A stretch of 64,000 nucleotides of DNA, taken from positions 434,001 to 498,000 of the forward strand of contig NZ_FQYY01000001.1 of assembly GCF_900141885.1 (NCBI RefSeq), read 5' to 3'. The DNA is from Mesonia phycicola. GTDB taxonomy: Bacteria; Bacteroidota; Bacteroidia; Flavobacteriales; Flavobacteriaceae. The notes under the pieces are model-generated. The model searched no databases, was not told the DNA's origin, and saw nothing but the letters and a program-made list of their open reading frames with translations. Position numbers and translations under genes: made by a program. This document shows, piece by piece, positions 6,849 through 31,837 of this stretch (positions are counted from its first letter, which is position 1; every line of letters begins with the position of its first letter).

Positions 6849-6880
6849 TTTGCTCAGTTAAATATCTATTTATAATTTCA
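6849..6880 (+). promoter_or_regulatory. Probable ilv operon promoter
   Basis: TTTG at 6849-6852 matches the -33 element, and TAATTTCA at 6873-6880 matches six of eight positions of the TAnnTTTG -7 element, with a 20-base spacer. Transcription would begin near 6885-6888, some 15 bases before the leader peptide ATG at 6901. The position is right even though the -7 match is imperfect. Confidence 0.45.
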
Positions 6881-6900
6881 CTTAACATTTAAGATTTAAA

Positions 6901-6969
6901 ATGAATCGAAACATAAAAAATATTATTCGCATTATTATTCTAGTCATTATTATCCCAATAATGAGCTGA
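6901..6969 (+). CDS. ilv operon leader peptide (attenuation)
   Basis: A 22-codon open frame with ATG at 6901 and TGA at 6967-6969. Its content is diagnostic: ten Ile (residues 5, 8, 9, 11-13, 16-18, 20), one Leu and one Val, including the run IIRIIILVIIIPI. It lies 81 bases before ilvD, between the promoter and an intrinsic terminator at 7002-7030. The sequence 6964-6973, which overlaps its last sense codon and stop, pairs with the left arm of the terminator. This is the layout of a translation-sensing attenuator: a ribosome stalled on Ile codons leaves 6964-6973 free to form the antiterminator; one that reaches the stop covers it and lets the terminator form. Too short for ordinary gene callers. 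Confidence 0.88.
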   Translation: MNRNIKNIIRIIILVIIIPIMS

Positions 6970-7015
6970 AAGGTATTGCTATAATTTAACTATATATCAT
7001 TAACCCTTTTCAGCT
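6964..7015 (+). promoter_or_regulatory. ilv antiterminator pairing
   Basis: Bases 6964-6973 (AGCTGAAAGG) can pair with 7006-7015 without interruption: nine Watson-Crick pairs and one G-U. The right half occupies the terminator's left arm and loop, so the two structures exclude each other. The left half starts in the codon before the leader stop, exactly where a terminating ribosome would mask it. Confidence 0.8.
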
Positions 7016-7030
7016 TGAAAAGGGTTTTTT
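7002..7030 (+). terminator. ilv attenuator terminator
   Basis: A perfect 10-bp stem (7002-7011 with 7017-7026) closing a five-base loop and followed by a T-run to 7030. It lies 21 bases before the ilvD start and would stop transcription before the structural genes when isoleucine is plentiful. Confidence 0.9.
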
Positions 7031-7050
7031 AGTTTAAAGAAATAAGATAA

Positions 7051-8742
7051 ATGAAACTTAACAAATTTAGTCAACGAGTAACCCAAGACCCATCCCAACC
7101 TGCATCGCAAGCTATGCTTCACGCCATAGGCTTAACAGATGAAGATTTAGCCAAACCTTTAATTGGTATTGGTAGCACAGGTTTTGAAGGTAACCCGTGT
7201 AATATGCACCTCAACGATTTAGCCCAACATGTAAAAACAGGAATTAACAGTAACGATGGTGTAGGTTTAGTATTTAACACTATTGGGGTAAGTGATGGTA
7301 TTTCTATGGGTACCCCAGGTATGCGTTTCTCTCTTCCGTCACGAGATATTATTGCAGATTCTATGGAAACTGTGGTAGAAGGGATGAGCTACGATGCATT
7401 AGTTACCGTGGTAGGTTGCGATAAAAATATGCCTGGTGCTTTAATGGCCATGTTTAGACTAGACCGACCTTCGGTTATGGTTTACGGCGGAACGATTGCT
7501 CCTGGTAAACTTGGCGATAAAAAACTAGATGTGGTTTCTGCTTTTGAAGCTTGGGGAGAAAGATCTACAGGTAAAATGAAAGAATGTGAATTTAAAAAAG
7601 TAATACATCACGCATGTCCTGGCCCTGGTGCTTGTGGCGGAATGTATACTGCCAATACTATGGCTTCTGCTATCGAAGCTTTAGGCTTTTCACTTCCTTA
7701 TAACGCCTCTAATCCTGCTGTAGGAAATGCAAAATTAGCAGAATGTACTAAAGCTGGAGAAGCGGTAATGCAGCTATTAAAACAAGATTTAAAACCTTCA
7801 GATATAGTTTCTAAAAAATCTTTTGAAAATGCTATTACGGTAGTTATTACTCTTGGTGGCTCTACCAATGCGGTACTTCATTTTCTAGCCATTGCAGATG
7901 CTGCAGGGGTAGATTTCAGAATTGATGATTTTCAACGTATAAGTGATCAAGTTCCATATTTAGCTAATTTAAAACCTAGCGGAAAATATTTAATGGAAGA
8001 CCTTCATAAAATTGGAGGTACTCCAGCCGTTATGAAATATCTTTTAGACAAAGGGTACTTACACGGAGATTGTTTAACCGTTACCGGCAAAACACTTGCC
8101 GAAAATTTAGCAAATGTTCCTTCATTAACAGAAGAGCAAGATATAATTCATTCCGTAGAAAATCCTTTAAAAGCTACAGGGCATCTACGTATTCTTAAAG
8201 GAAATTTAGCTTCTGAAGGTGCTGTAGCCAAAATTACCGGTAAAGAAGGACTTTTATTTTCTGGTACTGCAAAAATTTACGAAGGTGAATATCTAGCTAA
8301 CGAAGGTATATCTAACGGAGAAGTAAGAGAAGGTGATGTGGTGGTTATTAGGTATGAAGGTCCAAAAGGCGGACCCGGAATGCCAGAAATGCTAAAACCT
8401 ACTTCTGCAATTATGGGAAGAGGTTTGGGTAAAAAAGTTGCTTTAATTACCGACGGAAGATTTTCTGGAGGGACCCACGGTTTTGTGGTAGGCCATATTA
8501 CTCCAGAAGCACAAGTAGGCGGAACAATCGCTCTTTTAAAAGATGGTGACAAAATCACTATTGATGCAGAAAAAAACACTATAGATGTTCATCTTTCTGA
8601 AGAAGAACTTACTCTAAGAAAAAAAGAATGGAAAGCCCCACCTTTAAAAGTAACTCGTGGAGCATTATTTAAATATGCACAATCAGTAACCTCTGCGTCT
8701 TCAGGATGCGTAACCGATAAAGTTTATGGAAACACAAACTAA
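7051..8742 (+). CDS. ilvD: Dihydroxy-acid dehydratase
   Basis: A 563-residue IlvD/Edd family enzyme that dehydrates 2,3-dihydroxyisovalerate and 2,3-dihydroxy-3-methylvalerate to the 2-oxo acids, the third common step of Val and Ile synthesis, in the cytoplasm. The three cluster cysteines are Cys50 (GNPC), Cys123 (GCDKNMPG) and Cys195 ([14 protein letters not shown]), and the C-terminal GRFSGGTHG motif is present. Length is normal. It is the first structural gene after the attenuator, and its last 17 bases overlap ilvB in another frame, suggesting translational coupling. Confidence 0.98.
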
Positions 8743-10441
8743 AACTAAAACCAAAGTAATTACAGGAGCAGAAGCTGTTGTAAAATGTCTTTTATTAGAA
8801 CAAACCGATTATTTGTTTGGATATCCAGGTGGTGCAATAATGCCTGTTTATGATGCTATGTACGATTATCGAGATCAATTAGAGCATATACTTACAAGAC
8901 ATGAACAAGGAGCAATTCACGCAGCACAAGGTTATGCTCGTGTTTCGGGTAAAGTAGGTGTTTGTATTGCTACTTCTGGCCCTGGTGCCACCAATTTAAT
9001 TACAGGTTTAGCAGATGCACAAATAGATTCTACTCCGCTAGTTTGTATTACTGGTCAAGTTGGTAGTCATTTATTAGGTACAGATGCCTTTCAAGAAACC
9101 GATGTGGTAGGTATTTCTACTCCTGTAACAAAATGGAATATTCAAGTTACTAAGGCAGAAGATATTCCTGAAGCTATAGCTAAGGCTTTTTACATTGCAA
9201 AAAGCGGTAGACCAGGCCCTGTTTTAATAGATATCACTAAAGATGCACAGTTTCAAACTTGCGAGTTTGCCTACAAATCTTGTGCTAGTGTAAGAAGTTA
9301 TGTACCAGAAACTCCTATTAATCAAAAACAAATAGAAAAAGCAGCAGCATTAATTAATAACGCTAAAAAACCTTATGTGCTTTTTGGTCAAGGGGTAGTT
9401 TTAGCAGATGCACAAGAAGAATTTAGAAAGTTTATTGAAAAGGGAGATATTCCTTCTGCTTGGACAATTTTAGGTCTTTCTGCTCTATCTACACATCACC
9501 CACTAAATATGGGAATGTTAGGTATGCACGGTAATTACGGACCCAATTTATTGACTAATGAATGTGATGTTCTTATAGCAGTAGGTATGCGTTTTGACGA
9601 TCGTGTTACAGGAGATTTAAGCAGATATGCTACCCAAGCTAAAGTAGTTCACTTAGAAATTGACCCAGCAGAAATTAACAAAAACGTATTTGCAGATGCT
9701 CCCGTACTAGGTAACTGCAAACAATCGCTACAAATGTTAACAGATTTGATAGAAGAAAAAAAGCATACCGATTGGAAACAGCTTTTTTACGATTGTAAGC
9801 AAAAAGAGTTTTCTGTCGTGATTGAAAAAGAACTTGCTCCTTCTTTAAATGAAGAAATGACTATGGGAGAAGTTATCAAACATATTTCTGACCAAACTAA
9901 AGGAAAAGCTATTGTCGTTACAGATGTTGGTCAGCACCAAATGGCATCTCAACGATATTACGAGCATGACCAATGGAGAAGCCACGTAACCTCTGGCGGA
10001 TTGGGAACTATGGGGTTTGGACTGCCAGCAGCTATTGGAGCCAAACTAGGAGCGCAAGATAGAGAAGTTATTTGCGTAGTAGGCGATGGTGGCTTTCAAA
10101 TGACGATACAAGAGTTAGGTACTATTTTTCAATCGCAAATTGATGTGAAAATTTTAGTATTGAATAATGAGTTTTTAGGAATGGTACGCCAATGGCAAGA
10201 ATTATTTTTTGAAAGAAGGTATTCTTTTACAGAAATGGTAAATCCAGATTTTCAAACTATTGCTAAAGGCTACCACATAAAAGCAGAAAAGGTAGAAAAA
10301 AGAGAGCACTTAACGGAAGCTATCGGGAGATTTTTAAATCACAAAGGAAGCTATTTGCTAGAAGTAATGGTTGGTAAAGAAAATAACGTGTTCCCTATGG
10401 TACCTACTGGCGCTAGTGTATCTGAAGTTAGACTAAAATAA
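8726..10441 (+). CDS. ilvB: Acetolactate synthase, large catalytic subunit
   Basis: A 571-residue thiamine-diphosphate enzyme that condenses pyruvate with pyruvate or 2-oxobutyrate. Visible features: [13 protein letters not shown] near the N-terminus, the catalytic Glu60 in [16 protein letters not shown], the FAD-binding middle domain, and the ThDP/Mg motif from GDGGFQMT to LNN near residues 450-480. The poly-Thr/Lys first ten residues are the start chosen because the ATG lies inside ilvD's last codons and no better start exists. ilvN follows after 12 bases and supplies the regulatory subunit. Confidence 0.98.
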
Positions 10442-10453
10442 AAACCGAGTAAA

Positions 10454-10993
10454 ATGAAAGAAGAATTCACCATATCTGTTTTTACGGAAGATAAAATAGG
10501 CTTACTAAACCGGGTAAGTATCATTTTTACAAGAAGGCATATCAACATAGAAAGCATCACTGCTTCTGCTAGTGAAGTTGAAGGTATTCACCGCTATATT
10601 ATTGTGGTGGAAGAAGAAGAAAGTTTAGTAATAAAAGTTATACAGCAATTAGAAAAACAGGTAGATGTGGTAAAAGCTTTTTACCATCGTAACAAAAATA
10701 TGGTACACCAAGAAATTGCACTTTACAAAGTACCGACCTCTGCGCTAGCCTCTGGAGAAGACGTTGAAGAAATTATTAGAAGTAGCAACGCACGTATTCT
10801 TACGGTAGAAGCTGAATTTACTGTAATTGAAAAAACTGGCCATAAAACAGACACGCAAGCACTTTATAATAAACTAGAACCTTACGGTTTATTAGGTTTT
10901 GTAAGATCTGGTAGAGTAGCTATACCTAAACACATGAAAGAATTTAAAGAATATATGGAAGAAGTAGAAAAAGCCTCTACCTTTTACTGTTAA
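10454..10993 (+). CDS. ilvN: Acetolactate synthase, small regulatory subunit
   Basis: A 179-residue regulatory subunit. An ACT domain occupies about residues 4-80 (FTISVFTEDKIGLLNRVSIIF, then INIESITA), followed by the ALS_ss_C domain. It activates IlvB and confers feedback inhibition by branched-chain amino acids. It sits 12 bases after ilvB. A 118-base gap with a stem-loop separates it from ilvC. Confidence 0.97.
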   Translation: MKEEFTISVFTEDKIGLLNRVSIIFTRRHINIESITASASEVEGIHRYIIVVEEEESLVIKVIQQLEKQVDVVKAFYHRNKNMVHQEIALYKVPTSALASGEDVEEIIRSSNARILTVEAEFTVIEKTGHKTDTQALYNKLEPYGLLGFVRSGRVAIPKHMKEFKEYMEEVEKASTFYC

Positions 10994-11111: not shown

Positions 11112-12158
11112 ATGGCAAAATTAAATTTTGGCGGAGTAGAAGAAAATGTAGTTACAAGAGATGAATTTCCTCTAAAAAAAGCAGTTGAAACTCTTAAAGA
11201 CGAAACGGTTGCAGTAATTGGCTATGGCGTTCAAGGTCCTGGGCAAGCACTAAACTTAAAAGATAATGGGTTTAATGTAATTGTAGGACAACGTAAAAAT
11301 TCTAAAACTTGGGATAAGGCAGTAGCAGATGGTTGGGTACCTGGTGAAACTCTTTTTGAAGTAGAAGAAGCTGCTAAAAAGGGAACTATTGTACAATACT
11401 TACTTTCTGATGCAGGCCAAATTGCACAATGGGAAACCGTAAAAAACCAATTAAATCCAGGAGATGCATTATATTTTTCTCACGGTTTTGGTATTACTTA
11501 TAAAGACCAAACTGGTATTGTACCTCCTAAAGATGTAGATGTAATTTTAGTAGCCCCTAAAGGTTCTGGAACTTCTTTACGTAGACTTTTTGTAGAAGGA
11601 AAAGGGTTAAACTCTAGTTATGCTATTTTTCAAGATGCTACTGGTAAAGCTTACGATCGTGTAGTTTCTTTAGGTATTGGTGTTGGTTCTGGTTACTTAT
11701 TTGAAACAGATTTTCAGAAAGAAGTTTATTCAGATTTAACTGGAGAACGCGGTATTTTAATGGGGGCTTTGGCAGGTGTTTTTGAAGCTCAGTATGAAGT
11801 ATTACGTAAAAATGGACACTCCCCTTCTGAAGCTTTTAATGAAACAGTAGAAGAACTTACCCAAAGTTTAATGCCTCTAGTTGCAGAAAATGGGATGGAT
11901 TGGATGTATGCTAATTGCTCTACCACTGCACAACGTGGTGCTTTAGATTGGCGTCACAAATTTAAAAAAGCAACTTTACCTGTTTTTGACGATTTATATG
12001 AAAGTGTAAAAACTGGTGAAGAAGCTAGAGTTACTATTAAAGCAAACGAGAAAGACGATTATCGTGTAAAATTAGAAGAAGAACTAAAAGAACTTAGAGA
12101 ATCTGAAATCTGGAAAACGGGAGCACAAGTAAGAAAATTAAGACCTGAAAACAATTAA
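11112..12158 (+). CDS. ilvC: Ketol-acid reductoisomerase (NADP+)
   Basis: A 348-residue class I (short-form) reductoisomerase that isomerises and reduces acetolactate/acetohydroxybutyrate. The Rossmann motif IGYGVQGPGQALNLKDNG begins near residue 36, and the acidic metal-binding helix segments (TDFQKEVYSDLTGERG) follow. The form is slightly longer at both ends than the 330-residue bacterial enzyme, as I recall for Bacteroidota. It lies within the ilv cluster with its own short upstream gap and is followed by an intergenic repeat element before ilvA. Confidence 0.98.
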   Translation: MAKLNFGGVEENVVTRDEFPLKKAVETLKDETVAVIGYGVQGPGQALNLKDNGFNVIVGQRKNSKTWDKAVADGWVPGETLFEVEEAAKKGTIVQYLLSDAGQIAQWETVKNQLNPGDALYFSHGFGITYKDQTGIVPPKDVDVILVAPKGSGTSLRRLFVEGKGLNSSYAIFQDATGKAYDRVVSLGIGVGSGYLFETDFQKEVYSDLTGERGILMGALAGVFEAQYEVLRKNGHSPSEAFNETVEELTQSLMPLVAENGMDWMYANCSTTAQRGALDWRHKFKKATLPVFDDLYESVKTGEEARVTIKANEKDDYRVKLEEELKELRESEIWKTGAQVRKLRPENN

Positions 12159-12304: not shown

Positions 12305-13567
12305 ATGAAAACACAACAAGCACCTTTACTTTTATTAAGCAACGTAAAAAGAGCGCAGCAAAATATTGAGGGTATTGTGGTGAAAACTGCTCTACAAAAA
12401 AATAGAAGTTATTCTAAAGATTTTGCTGCTAACATTTTTTTAAAGCGAGAAGATCAGCAACGAGTAAGATCTTATAAAATTAGAGGTGCTTATAATAAAA
12501 TTGTTTCTCTTACCGCTGCAGAAAGAGAAAATGGCGTGGTTTGCGCTAGTGCTGGTAATCACGCGCAAGGTGTTGCTTTTTCTTGCAAACATTTAAATAT
12601 TAATGCTAAAATATTTATGCCTACTCCTACTCCGCTACAAAAAGTAGAACAGGTAAGAATGTTTGGTGATGATAAAGTGGAAGTAATTTTATTTGGTGAT
12701 ACTTTTGATGATGCTAAACACGAGGCTTTACGTTATAGCAAACTACATAATTGTACGGTAATTCACCCTTTTGACGATCCAAAAATTATGGAAGGTCAAG
12801 GTACTATTGGTTTAGAAATTTTAGAAGCTTCTACAGAACCTATAGACTATTTATTTTTGCCAATTGGCGGCGGTGGTGTGGCTTCTGGAGTAAGTAGTGT
12901 TTTTAAAGAACTTTCTCCCTCTACAAAAATTATTGGCGTAGAGCCAACAGGTGCCGCATCTATGTCTACCTCTATTCGTAATAACAAAAACACAGAGCTT
13001 CTTGAAATAGATAAGTTTGTAGATGGCGCTGCAGTAAAAAAAGTGGGTGAGCTTACTTACCAAATTTGCAAACAAAATTTAGACAGCGTTATTACCGTTG
13101 ATGAAGGTAAAATATGCGAAACTATTTTAAAATTATACAATAGAGATGCTATTGTTGCAGAACCTGCTGGCGCTTTAACTCTGGCTGCTTTAAGTCAATT
13201 TACCGAAGAAATTAAAGGTAAAAATGTGGTTTGCGTGGTTAGTGGTGGTAACAATGATATTACCAGAATGGAAGAAATTAAAGAACGTGCTTTACTTTAC
13301 AACGGATTGAAGCATTATTTTCTGGTAAAATTTCCGCAAAGAGCGGGTGCATTAAAGCAATTTGTGGTAGATGTATTAGGCCCTAATGATGATATTACCC
13401 ATTTTGAATACATTAAAAAAAATTCTAGAGAAAAAGGTCACGCAGTTGTTGGTATAGAATTAAAAGAAAAAGAAGATTTTACTCCATTATTAAATAGAAT
13501 GAAAGAGTTTCAGTTTTATGGAGACTATATTAATGAAAAAGAAAGCTTGATGAATATTTTAGTGTGA
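12305..13567 (+). CDS. ilvA: Threonine dehydratase, biosynthetic
   Basis: A 420-residue PLP enzyme that deaminates threonine to 2-oxobutyrate, the committed step to isoleucine. Lys58 in RSYKIRGAYNKI is the Schiff-base lysine, SAGNHAQGVA binds substrate and GGGGVASG binds the PLP phosphate. The C-terminus (about 340-420, HYFLVKFPQRAGALKQFV) is a single ACT-like regulatory domain, so it is the short type rather than the two-domain E. coli form. Last gene of the ilv cluster; no terminator is obvious after it. Confidence 0.97.
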   Translation: MKTQQAPLLLLSNVKRAQQNIEGIVVKTALQKNRSYSKDFAANIFLKREDQQRVRSYKIRGAYNKIVSLTAAERENGVVCASAGNHAQGVAFSCKHLNINAKIFMPTPTPLQKVEQVRMFGDDKVEVILFGDTFDDAKHEALRYSKLHNCTVIHPFDDPKIMEGQGTIGLEILEASTEPIDYLFLPIGGGGVASGVSSVFKELSPSTKIIGVEPTGAASMSTSIRNNKNTELLEIDKFVDGAAVKKVGELTYQICKQNLDSVITVDEGKICETILKLYNRDAIVAEPAGALTLAALSQFTEEIKGKNVVCVVSGGNNDITRMEEIKERALLYNGLKHYFLVKFPQRAGALKQFVVDVLGPNDDITHFEYIKKNSREKGHAVVGIELKEKEDFTPLLNRMKEFQFYGDYINEKESLMNILV

Positions 13568-28299: not shown

Positions 28300-28352
28300 C
28301 GTAAAATCATTTAACACAAACACTTAAAAAACAAATACTTAATAATAAAAGT

Positions 28353-28398
28353 AGCCGCTTAGAAATCGTAAGTATTTTTAAAATTTGATTCTAAGGCT
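28353..28398 (+). promoter_or_regulatory. Stem-loop upstream of leuA
   Basis: AGCCGCTTAGAAATC at 28353-28367 pairs with GATTCTAAGGCT at 28387-28398 (12 pairs with small bulges), and the flanks AAAAGTA/TACTTTT extend the pairing. It lies 51 bases before leuA, in the 126-base divergent gap. No leader peptide is visible, so if it is regulatory the mechanism differs from the ilv attenuator. Confidence 0.4.
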
Positions 28399-28449
28399 CT
28401 ATAAACCTTATTACTTTTAAAATTAAAGATAAACTAAAAACAAGCGTTT

Positions 28450-29622
28450 ATGAGTACAGAAAAGGTAGAAATTTTTGATACCACGTTGAGAGATGGAGAG
28501 CAAGTACCTGGGTGCAAGTTAAACACCACCCAAAAATTAAAAATTGCCAAAAGATTAGATGAATTAGGGGTAGATGTTATAGAAGCAGGATTTCCTGTAT
28601 CTAGCCCACAAGACTTTCAATCTGTTTCAGAAATTGCCAAACTCGTAAAAAATGCCACCGTTTGCGGCCTAACTAGAGCTGTAAAAAACGATATTGAAGT
28701 AGCTGCACAAGCTTTAAAACATGCCAAAAAACCAAGAATACATACTGGTATTGGTACTTCAGAATCTCATATTAAATACAAATTTAAATCTACACCACAA
28801 GAAATTATAGAACGTGCGGGAGAAGCGGTAGCTTATGCCAAAAGTTTTGTAGACGACGTAGAGTTTTATGCAGAAGATGCTGGTAGAACAGATAATGAGT
28901 TTTTGGCAACTGTTTGTACAGAAGCCGTCAAAGCTGGCGCAACTGTTTTAAATATACCAGACACCACAGGTTATTGTTTGCCCGAAGAATATGGTAAAAA
29001 AATAAAATACTTAAAAGATAATGTAGTAGGCATAGAAAACGTGATCATTTCTTGTCATTGCCACAACGATTTAGGGATGGCTACCGCCAACTCTATTGCC
29101 GGAATCACCAATGGCGCTCGCCAAATAGAATGTACTATAAATGGTATTGGCGAACGTGCAGGAAACACTGCTTTAGAAGAAATAGTAATGATTTTGCGCC
29201 AACACCCAGCATTAAACTTACATACAGATATCCACTCGCAATTATTGTACGATACCAGCAAAATGGTTTCTCAAGAAATGGGAATGTACGTACAACCCAA
29301 CAAAGCAATTGTTGGTGCCAACGCCTTTGCTCATAGTTCTGGTATTCACCAAGACGGAGTAATTAAAAACAGAGAAACTTACGAAATTATCAACCCAGCA
29401 GATGTAGGTGTAACCGAGTCTGCCATTATTCTTACCGCAAGAAGCGGTCGTGCTGCCTTAGCTCATAAAGCCAAAAAAGTTGGTTATAATCTTACCAAAC
29501 TAGAGTTAGATGTAGTGTACAAAGAATTTCTTCATTATGCCGATGCACGCAAAGAAGTTCTAGACAACGACATTCATAAAATTATGGAAATTTATCAATC
29601 TAAATCTCGTGTAAGCGCATAA
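28450..29622 (+). CDS. leuA: 2-isopropylmalate synthase, short form
   Basis: A 390-residue HMGL-like TIM-barrel enzyme that condenses 2-oxoisovalerate with acetyl-CoA, first step of leucine synthesis. Motifs: [16 protein letters not shown] at the start, [14 protein letters not shown], the metal ligands in [14 protein letters not shown] and GIGERAGN. The protein stops soon after the barrel and a short helical linker ([15 protein letters not shown]); the LeuA allosteric dimer domain (about 120 residues, PF08502) that gives leucine feedback inhibition is missing. Citramalate or homocitrate synthase are alternatives, but the leuC-leuD-leuB context favours LeuA. Repeat copy B lies in the 136-base gap to leuC. 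Confidence 0.93.
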
Positions 29623-29628
29623 TTATGT

Positions 29629-29744
29629 GGGCGCAACCCTACCGGGTCGGGCTATTCGCTATATCTTTTTTGCTACTCACTTGAGCTTAATTTAAGAAGT
29701 CTTTTATAAAGCAAAAAAGGATGTCGCTTCTATCCCTTGCGCAA
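29629..29744 (-). repeat. Intergenic fold-back element, copy B (leuA-leuC)
   Basis: Inverse orientation relative to copies A and C. Read on the minus strand it starts TTGCGCAAGGGATAGAAG and ends GACCCGGTAGGGTTGCGCCC. Terminal inverted repeat: GCGCAA 29631-29636 with TTGCGC 29737-29742. A second, inner pair is ATCTTTTTTGCT (29663-29674) with AGCAAAAAAGGAT (29710-29722). It fills the leuA-leuC gap. Confidence 0.8.
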
Positions 29745-29758
29745 TTAAAAAAAACAAA

Positions 29759-31141
29759 ATGAAAAAAACACTTTTTGATAAAATCTGGGATGCTCACGTG
29801 GTAGAGTCTATACCTAACGGTCCAGATATTTTATATATAGACAAACATCTAATTCATGAAGTTACTAGTCCGCAAGCTTTTCAAGAACTTAAAGACCGTA
29901 ATATCCCTGTTTTTAGACCAGATAAAACTGTAGCTACTGCAGACCACAACACGCCTACAGAAAATCAACATTTACCTGTAAAAGACTTATTATCAAGAAA
30001 ACAACTTAAAGAACTTACTCAAAATTGCGAAGAAAATAATATTACCCTTTACGGTCTAGGGCATCCCTACAATGGTATTGTGCATGTTATGGCTCCAGAG
30101 TTAGGTATTACCCAACCAGGAATGACAATGGTTTGTGGTGATAGCCACACCTCTACCCACGGTGCTTTTGGCACCATTGCTTTTGGTATAGGTACTAGCC
30201 AAGTTGCGCAAGTTTTTGCTAGTCAATCTTTATTGGTGCAAAAACCCAAAAAACTTAGAGTAAACGTAAACGGCAAATTAAAAAAAGGAGTTACCCCTAA
30301 AGATGTTATCTTATATATTATTAGTGAATTAGGCACCAACTCGGGTACTGGATATTTTTGTGAATACGCAGGTAACGTTTTTGAAGAAATGTCGATGGAA
30401 GGCAGAATGACCGTTTGTAATATGAGCATAGAAATGGGTGCTCGTGGCGGACTTATAGCGCCAGACCAAACCACTTATGATTATGTAGAAGGAAGAGAAT
30501 TTGCGCCAAAAGGAGAAGCATTTGAAAAACTAAAAACCTATTGGGAAAGTTTAAAAACAGACGAAGACGCTATTTTTGATCAAGAGTATTCTTTTAATGC
30601 AGAAGCCATAGAACCTATGGTAACTTACGGTACTAATCCAGGTATGGGTATAAAAATTACCCAAGCTATCCCTACAAATAGTAATAAAAGTTCAGACAAA
30701 GCACTAGAATATATGGGCTTTACAGCTGGAAAATCTTTAATAGACACCCCTATTAATTATATTTTTATAGGTAGTTGTACCAACTCTAGAATAGAAGATT
30801 TTAGACTAGCCGCTAGTTACATTAAAGGAAAGAAAAAGGCAGACAATGTAAACGCATTAATTGTACCCGGCTCAAGACAAGTAGCTGCTCAAATTGAAGA
30901 AGAAGGTTTACATACTATTTTTGAAGAAGCAGGATTTAAATTAAGGCAACCAGGCTGCTCGGCTTGTTTAGCGATGAACGATGATAAAATACCTGCAGGA
31001 GAGTATTGCGTATCTACCAGTAACAGAAATTTTGAAGGTAGACAAGGGCAAGGCTCTAGAACCATTTTAGCTAGCCCATTAACTGCTGCTGCAACTGCTA
31101 TTGCAGGAAAAATTGTAGATTTTACAAAACACCTAAACTAA
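29759..31141 (+). CDS. leuC: 3-isopropylmalate dehydratase, large subunit
   Basis: A 460-residue aconitase-family subunit that with LeuD isomerises 2- to 3-isopropylmalate. Iron-sulfur motifs [12 protein letters not shown] and [10 protein letters not shown] and the loop [13 protein letters not shown] are present. Its last base is the first base of the leuD start codon (TAATG overlap), so the subunits are translationally coupled. Confidence 0.98.
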
Positions 31142-31731
31142 TGGAAAAATTTGTAACCCTTACCGATACAGCGGTACCCTTAGAGATAGAAAACATAGAT
31201 ACCGATCAAATAATTCCGGCTCGTTTTTTAAAAGCTACAGATAAAGCTGGTTTTGGAGAAAATTTATTTAGAGACTGGCGCTTTGATAACGAAGGAAATA
31301 TAAAAAAAGATTTTCCATTAAATCAAGAACAATATCAAGGTCAAATTTTAGTGGCTGGAGATAATTTTGGTTGCGGCTCTAGTAGAGAACACGCTGCTTG
31401 GGCTATAAAAGCATATGGCTTTAAAGTAGTTGTTTCTAGCTATTTTGCAGATATTTTTAAGGGCAACTCTTTAAATAATGGTTTGCTACCTGTGCAAGTG
31501 AGTCCAGAGTTTTTAGCAGAATTATTAAAAGCAATTGAAGAAAATCCTAAAACAGAAATTAAAATTGATTTAGAAAATCAAGTAATTACTCTTTTAGAAA
31601 AACAGCTAGAAGAAAGATTTGATATCGATGCTTATAAAAAAGTATGTTTAGTTAACGGATTTGATGATATTGATTTTTTATTGAGTAAATTAGAAAATAT
31701 AAAGGCTTTTGAAGAAAAGCACATTGCATAA
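31141..31731 (+). CDS. leuD: 3-isopropylmalate dehydratase, small subunit
   Basis: A 196-residue swivel-domain subunit of Leu[15 protein letters not shown] at the start and [20 protein letters not shown] near residues 76-97 are the family signatures. Normal length. Repeat copy C separates it from leuB. Confidence 0.98.
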
Positions 31732-31733
31732 AA

Positions 31734-31837
31734 TGCGCAAGGGATTGAAGTGGCATCCTTTTTATGTCATTTTGAGCGGAGTCGAGAAATTACATAAAAA
31801 AGATATAACGGAAAGCCCGACCCATAGGGTTGCGCCC
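31734..31837 (+). repeat. Intergenic fold-back element, copy C (leuD-leuB)
   Basis: Starts TGCGCAAGGGATTGAAG and ends GACCCATAGGGTTGCGCCC. Terminal inverted repeat GCGCAA 31735-31740 with TTGCGC 31830-31835; inner pair ATCCTTTTTATGT 31755-31767 with ACATAAAAAAGAT 31792-31804. The loop carries TTTTGAGCGGAGTCGAGAAA, similar to short hairpins common in Bacteroidota genomes. Confidence 0.8.

Follow-up and report, generated by a model that had tools for sequence, protein, structure and literature searches.

A probable ribosome-mediated attenuator ahead of ilvDBNCA in Mesonia phycicola, with single and tandem counterparts upstream of ilvD in other Bacteroidota

Among the closest described systems, the ilvL attenuator of Escherichia coli precedes ilvXGMEDA and combines a short leader rich in Ile, Val and Leu codons with a terminator ahead of the branched-chain genes. 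In 2010, leader-peptide systems were known to the authors of one paper solely from Proteobacteria and Actinobacteria, with Firmicutes then added (available text of PMC2965389). The accessible portion of a study of Flavobacterium psychrophilum speaks of 'strong clues' to leader-peptide attenuation at amino-acid operons (PMC9723704), and that of a study of Bacteroides thetaiotaomicron describes 5' regions with short frames resembling leader peptides (PMC7366714). The initial annotation of the locus analysed here held that such leaders are rarely annotated in Bacteroidota; this may hold for annotation, but flavobacterial leader-peptide attenuation has appeared in print (PMC9723704, in the part available). 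The Bacteroid-trp motif, Rfam RF01692, is listed in the available part of PMC2864571. Tandem attenuators are described for Salmonella mgtCBR, where they respond to ATP and proline and have stem-loops unlike intrinsic terminators (PMC3641672, accessible sections), and other tandem leader attenuators are cited in the available text of PMC4974804. The term ilv is absent from the main text of PMC9723704, whose supplementary tables may list an ilv leader, and has zero occurrences in the available text of those Bacteroidota and Flavobacterium leader-peptide papers that were examined for it, or of PMC2965389; no title in the literature gathered on tandem or double leader attenuators (mgtCBR, PMC4974804, PMC8092293, PMC10833563) concerns ilv. 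These sources weakly suggest that Bacteroidota ilv leaders are absent from print.

The window, by which we mean the whole analysed stretch of 64,000 nucleotides of Mesonia phycicola DNA, carries an Ile-rich leader frame, an antiterminator and an intrinsic terminator ahead of five ilv genes (Table 1). The operon content given by the initial annotation was right, as all five genes exceed a family cut-off, and the genes under control make the amino acid that would be sensed. The leader frame and the antiterminator were likewise recovered exactly as first described, and the terminator with its T-run lies where it had been placed, but its stem has 11 bp and not 10. The leader stop codon, TGA at 6967-6969, falls inside the left arm of the antiterminator; the antiterminator excludes the terminator, and a ribosome at the stop codon would cover that arm. 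The antiterminator helix, ten pairs of which one is G-U, is present in the best fold of the window RNA ending at 7016, and its score was matched by no swapped partner. The terminator scan yielded a single site of this kind, 0.0 being expected from shuffles. The leader RNA (6886-7030) had a better fold than all but one of 200 dinucleotide shuffles (199 beaten; z -3.7). When both strands of the 64-kb window were searched with the detector at loose settings, seven calls were obtained in 212 segments, and the ilvD leader had the top score, 10 of 12, the other calls scoring 7-9. The consensus fold of the genus sequences also contains a candidate protector hairpin that the initial annotation did not mention, in which leader codons double as pairing partners.

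Table 1. Coordinates of the features at the ilv locus (positions in the window) and of the leader that precedes hisG in this genome
Feature	Position	Strand	Remarks
13-nt block TTTAACATTTTAA	6825-6837	+	shortly before the promoter-like element; all 13 columns invariant among 6 genus sequences; possible operator or upstream element
-33-like element TTTG	6849-6852	+	
-7-like element TATAATTTCA	6871-6880	+	
Leader peptide frame MNRNIKNIIRIIILVIIIPIMS	6901-6969	+	22 codons: 10 Ile, 1 Leu, 1 Val
Segment 1, candidate protector hairpin 5' side	6922-6951	+	Ile/Leu/Val codons; consensus fold of 6 genus sequences; pairs with segment 2
Segment 2, candidate protector hairpin 3' side	6957-6985	+	includes the leader stop codon; consensus fold of 6 genus sequences
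Antiterminator left arm AGCTGAAAGG	6964-6973	+	pairs with 7006-7015
Antiterminator right arm CTTTTCAGCT	7006-7015	+	within terminator 5' arm and loop
Intrinsic terminator	7002-7030	+	11-bp stem, 7002-7012 with 7016-7026; 3-nt loop; T-run 7025-7030
ilvD, dihydroxy-acid dehydratase	7051-8742	+	TIGR00110 above cut-off
ilvB, acetolactate synthase large subunit	8726-10441	+	TIGR00118 above cut-off
ilvN, acetolactate synthase small subunit	10454-10993	+	TIGR00119 above cut-off
ilvC, ketol-acid reductoisomerase	11112-12158	+	TIGR00465 above cut-off
ilvA, threonine ammonia-lyase	12305-13567	+	NF006390 above cut-off
hisG leader MRDLNLHHHHFHIHAQAR and terminator	locus L237, 1189-1308	reverse	same genome

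The element is very probably a ribosome-mediated transcription attenuator of the trp/ilv/his type. RNA polymerase would start near 6885 and a ribosome would load on the leader at 6901. With charged tRNA-Ile, and with it the Val and Leu tRNAs, in ample supply, the ribosome would reach the UGA and cover the left arm of the antiterminator, upon which the terminator would form and transcription would end ahead of ilvD. Were these tRNAs short, the ribosome would stall in the Ile-rich stretch and the left arm would pair with the right arm, blocking the terminator and allowing ilvDBNCA to be transcribed. The initial annotation expected a response mainly to tRNA-Ile, and this is borne out in part: Ile codons dominate, but one Leu codon (CTA) and one Val codon (GTC, rare for Val here) lie between Ile13 and Ile16, and a stall at either of them would presumably also free the antiterminator.

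Folding was examined with an assumed ribosome footprint reaching 18 nt upstream and 11 nt downstream of the A-site codon. With the footprint at Ile8, 11, 13 or 16, the antiterminator forms in full in RNA that ends at 7016; at Ile18 the antiterminator is shortened, and at Ile20 or the stop codon none is formed. The same RNA without a ribosome also folds the antiterminator, which weighs against the candidate protector. Full-length equilibrium folding favoured the terminator in all states tried but the Ile13 stall (antiterminator 0.87), and the attenuation model therefore needs co-transcriptional timing. That equilibrium folding yields the terminator in most states tried would equally suit a plain terminator whose effect is to reduce basal transcription, the Ile-rich frame being untranslated or unsensed. 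We consider such a plain terminator improbable, and the coincidence of the leader stop codon with the antiterminator arm is a first point against it.

Bacteroidota promoters and start-site recognition differ from those of E. coli. A sigma-70-type promoter was rejected, as the scan for such promoters was at chance level with no excess (3 found against 3.2 expected). The TTTG element is presumably the Bacteroidota -33 box. A promoter upstream of the leader, as first proposed, is plausible, TTTG being invariant and TATAATTTCA mostly conserved in six genus sequences, but the second box fits the consensus TAnnTTTG (from the accessible part of PMC9723704) only partly. Transcription from these boxes would be expected to begin at the site near 6885.

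An IlvD match was found in 6 of 16 genus genomes, the window's own included, and branched-chain synthesis therefore looks patchy across the genus. The initial annotation had proposed aligning the upstream regions of relatives, and this alignment showed that each of the five other genus members with ilvD retains the leader frame and the alternative helices. In all six sequences the leader frame stays open up to a TGA stop and finishes as ILVIIIPIM or LLVIIIPIM plus one residue; frame, stop and helices stay though the sequence diverges. Of the 66 cells of the terminator stem in the six sequences, 97% are paired. Both sides have changed in 3 of its 11 pairs, against 0 in slid controls; as many changes were seen in 17 of 500 column shuffles. 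For the antiterminator, pairing is 95.7%, compared with 38-70% when slid, one pair meeting a gap in the window and one being unpaired in two of the six sequences. No two-sided change occurs in the antiterminator among the six sequences, five of eight pairs being invariant, and the shuffles are indistinguishable, all 500 of 500 reaching the observed values.

The wider comparison was based on the best 80 named matches, the genus loci and a search of the family that contributed 147 places. An IlvD hit was obtained in 233 of the 299 genomes covered by this search, the higher-ranked part of its list was used (29 loci and 118 stretches), and after four duplicate upstreams had been dropped there were 229 distinct ilvD upstreams. 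A strict unit was an ATG frame no longer than 50 codons with at least 8 of 12 codons for Ile, Val or Leu, followed 8-60 nt past the leader stop by a terminator folding at -9 kcal/mol or better; a relaxed unit needed 6 of 12. Of the 229 gathered upstreams, 67 contained a strict unit, compared with 0 of 1374 dinucleotide shuffles, and this association of an Ile/Val-rich frame with a terminator speaks against a plain terminator. Relaxed units were found in 92 of the 229 against 2 of 1374 shuffles. By source, strict units came from 45 of 149 genus and family loci and 22 of the best 80 named loci. Of the 162 upstreams that lack a strict unit, 25 carry a relaxed unit, and in 51 a terminator of some kind lies within about 450 nt; the layout of leader and terminator is common, not universal, at the strict threshold. 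An ATG frame with at least 8 Ile/Val in 12 codons occurred in 25 of 86 ilvD upstreams, that of the window among them, and in 0 of 1720 shuffles. In the 67 strict loci the Ile/Val-rich frames end a median of 28 nt ahead of the terminator.

At looser settings the detector recovers E. coli K-12 ilvL. A loose version of the search gave units in 66 of 171 loci with a background of 38 in 1710 shuffles, wrong frames included (e.g. L073, L109 and L144), and because of these wrong frames and this background the strict counts are used. Part of the family shares the attenuator layout, as do certain records from other Bacteroidota and from Ignavibacteriae. The ribosome-mediated attenuator placed before ilvDBNCA by the initial annotation is supported by both the genus comparison and this recurrence beyond the genus. 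The distance from the attenuator terminator to ilvD is about 20 nt in the window and about 180-250 nt in relatives such as L009, L011, L033, L037 and L224.

Locus-specific pairing was assessed for the 86 attenuators of the 67 strict loci by comparing each arm's own partner with partners swapped in from other loci. Antiterminator duplexes had a mean of -11.3 kcal/mol with their own partner against -7.9 with those of other loci; the own partner was better than the swap median in 73 of the 86 and beat 95% of swaps in 24. Protector duplexes showed means of -12.6 and -9.6 kcal/mol, respectively, with 68 of 86 better than the swap median and 25 of 86 beating 95% of swaps. An earlier pairing run with another score gave values no lower than the median in 59 of 71 cases and past the 95% mark in 21 of 71. 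Such a swap test may gain from within-locus base composition and lose from between-locus relatedness.

Analysis of the Val codons in 32 strict loci with the gene revealed that GTC accounts for 49 of 105 in the leaders against 106 of 1253 in ilvD, the leader exceeding its own gene in 29 of the 32; the odds ratio is 9.5 with p about 7e-22, a value that overstates independence because the loci are related. This enrichment also argues against a plain terminator. Among 15 genes of the window GTC is 15 of 467 Val codons. The Leu codons CTA and CTC together are enriched in leaders as well (19 of 56 against 195 of 1517, p 6e-5). The tRNA search of the genome itself gave 34 places, one place of 88 nt was left out, and ARAGORN, applied to 28 of 30 loci, showed one tRNA-Val gene with anticodon TAC, so that GTC would be read by wobble. 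In E. coli leuL, rare Leu codons serve sensitivity, and the leaders studied here may use GTC for sensitivity too. The GTC share is 0.65 in leaders with a TGA stop, 0.36 with TAA and 0.38 with TAG. Pairing with the UGA stop is thus insufficient as the sole reason for GTC, given the shares that persist with TAA and TAG, while a structural reason is possible because the share peaks with TGA.

The hisG gene of the same genome (PF01634 match) is preceded by the His-rich leader MRDLNLHHHHFHIHAQAR and a terminator of -17.0 kcal/mol. This leader is rich in His and not in Ile codons, a further point against a plain terminator at ilvD, and leader-peptide attenuation would thus appear to serve at least two operons of the genome. 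Leader-peptide attenuation is expected to need a ribosome close behind the polymerase, and its recurrence at ilv in the family, together with his in the genome studied, opens transcription-translation coupling in Bacteroidota to direct testing. An attenuator ahead of leuA (window position 28450) was rejected, as 28324-28449 contains no attenuator unit and no terminator on the + strand. For the second of the two homoserine dehydrogenase genes, the upstream stretch examined contained neither terminator nor unit. Two Flavo-1 RNA motifs (RF01705) lie in opposite orientations at window positions 29641-29750 (-) and 31732-31826 (+), flanking a gene pair at 29759-31731 that would be leuC-leuD judging by position.

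A riboswitch, a T-box or a protein-bound leader sensing its signal directly would share the layout of a structured 5' leader with a terminator, and sub-threshold matches to the PyrR, PyrG and Phe leader models were obtained, but no Rfam family reached the gathering score in the leader. Riboswitch, T-box and other Rfam cis-regulators were rejected on this ground, and we regard direct sensing as even less probable than a plain terminator. A small membrane peptide with a job of its own and incidental structure is the least credible reading. An Ile-rich 22-mer could span a membrane, but Ile/Val content and distance to the terminator persist across loci while sequence and length vary, and codons of the leader also take part in the candidate protector pairing.

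Probable attenuators of this kind also occur in series. A second unit (at least 6 of 12 Ile/Val/Leu) was found in 19 of the 67 strict loci, both units being strict in 14, and upstream of the most downstream strict leader a further unit occurred in 17 of 67 loci, compared with 3 of 1340 shuffled versions of these stretches. Tandem attenuators are present in four of the five other genus members with ilvD, and the window has one attenuator only. Besides these four, the 19 tandem loci include Gaetbulibacter, Aquimarina and Lutibacter records and an Ignavibacteriae MAG; the remaining ones come from eleven family genomes of nine numbered genera, some of which may be identical with the named genera. 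The second ATG lies 3-46 nt past the first terminator (median 16), which in nearly all 19 loci is too short for a separate promoter, and both attenuators would therefore stand under a single upstream promoter.

Under a loose motif rule, a CCTTCC-type terminator was assigned to 14 of the 19 first members and a TGTATC-type to 13 of the 19 second members; the 48 single units comprised 26 of the CCTTCC type, 10 of the TGTATC type and 12 others. The Ile, Val and Leu shares were 0.309, 0.102 and 0.073 in the 19 first leaders and 0.347, 0.090 and 0.066 in the 19 second leaders. Sensing of different amino acids by the two leaders is unsupported, the shares being alike, and because Ile dominates in both, a common amino-acid signal seems likely. 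The genus tree places the window and G001, which have a single unit each, below the four genomes that carry two units, and the fork joining G001 to the latter has a support of 88/92; from this topology a gain or a loss of units within the genus is each possible. In locus L024 the leaders MKTSNINIINVISNVVIISPR and MKAIKNISINVISIVVIISLR look similar, as if from a recent tandem duplication.

On balance these comparisons favour a Bacteroidota ilv leader that is a modular series switch, in which two full Ile/Val attenuators under one promoter occur in many genera, modules are gained or lost whole and GTC raises the sensitivity to charged tRNA-Val. If this is true, two attenuators for the same signal would multiply termination, so that repression would be tighter and the response steeper than with a single one. 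Relatives with one and with two modules form a natural set for measuring the effect of the second attenuator.

Compared with E. coli ilvL, the window has a different gene order and a leader of 22 residues against 32, and it would have a Bacteroidota-type promoter and a very short 5' untranslated region; the two peptides both contain VIIIP. The Bacteroid-trp RNA is a Bacteroidota cis-regulatory motif carrying a trp name (RF01692, as far as the available sources describe it), and the window has no match to it at gathering score. The relatives resemble mgtCBR, as described in the accessible sections of PMC3641672, in having two leader frames per leader, and differ from it in that both are Ile/Val leaders, each with an intrinsic terminator. 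Two ilv attenuators in series appear to be an arrangement rarely described, and together with the use of GTC they are the more interesting part of the comparison. The window itself holds a well-formed ilv attenuator of a kind for which little was found in print for Bacteroidota; the kind is nevertheless already known, because leader-peptide attenuation is in print for Flavobacterium psychrophilum (available part of PMC9723704), which shares with the window the bacterial family, the setting in amino-acid biosynthesis operons and the leader peptides.
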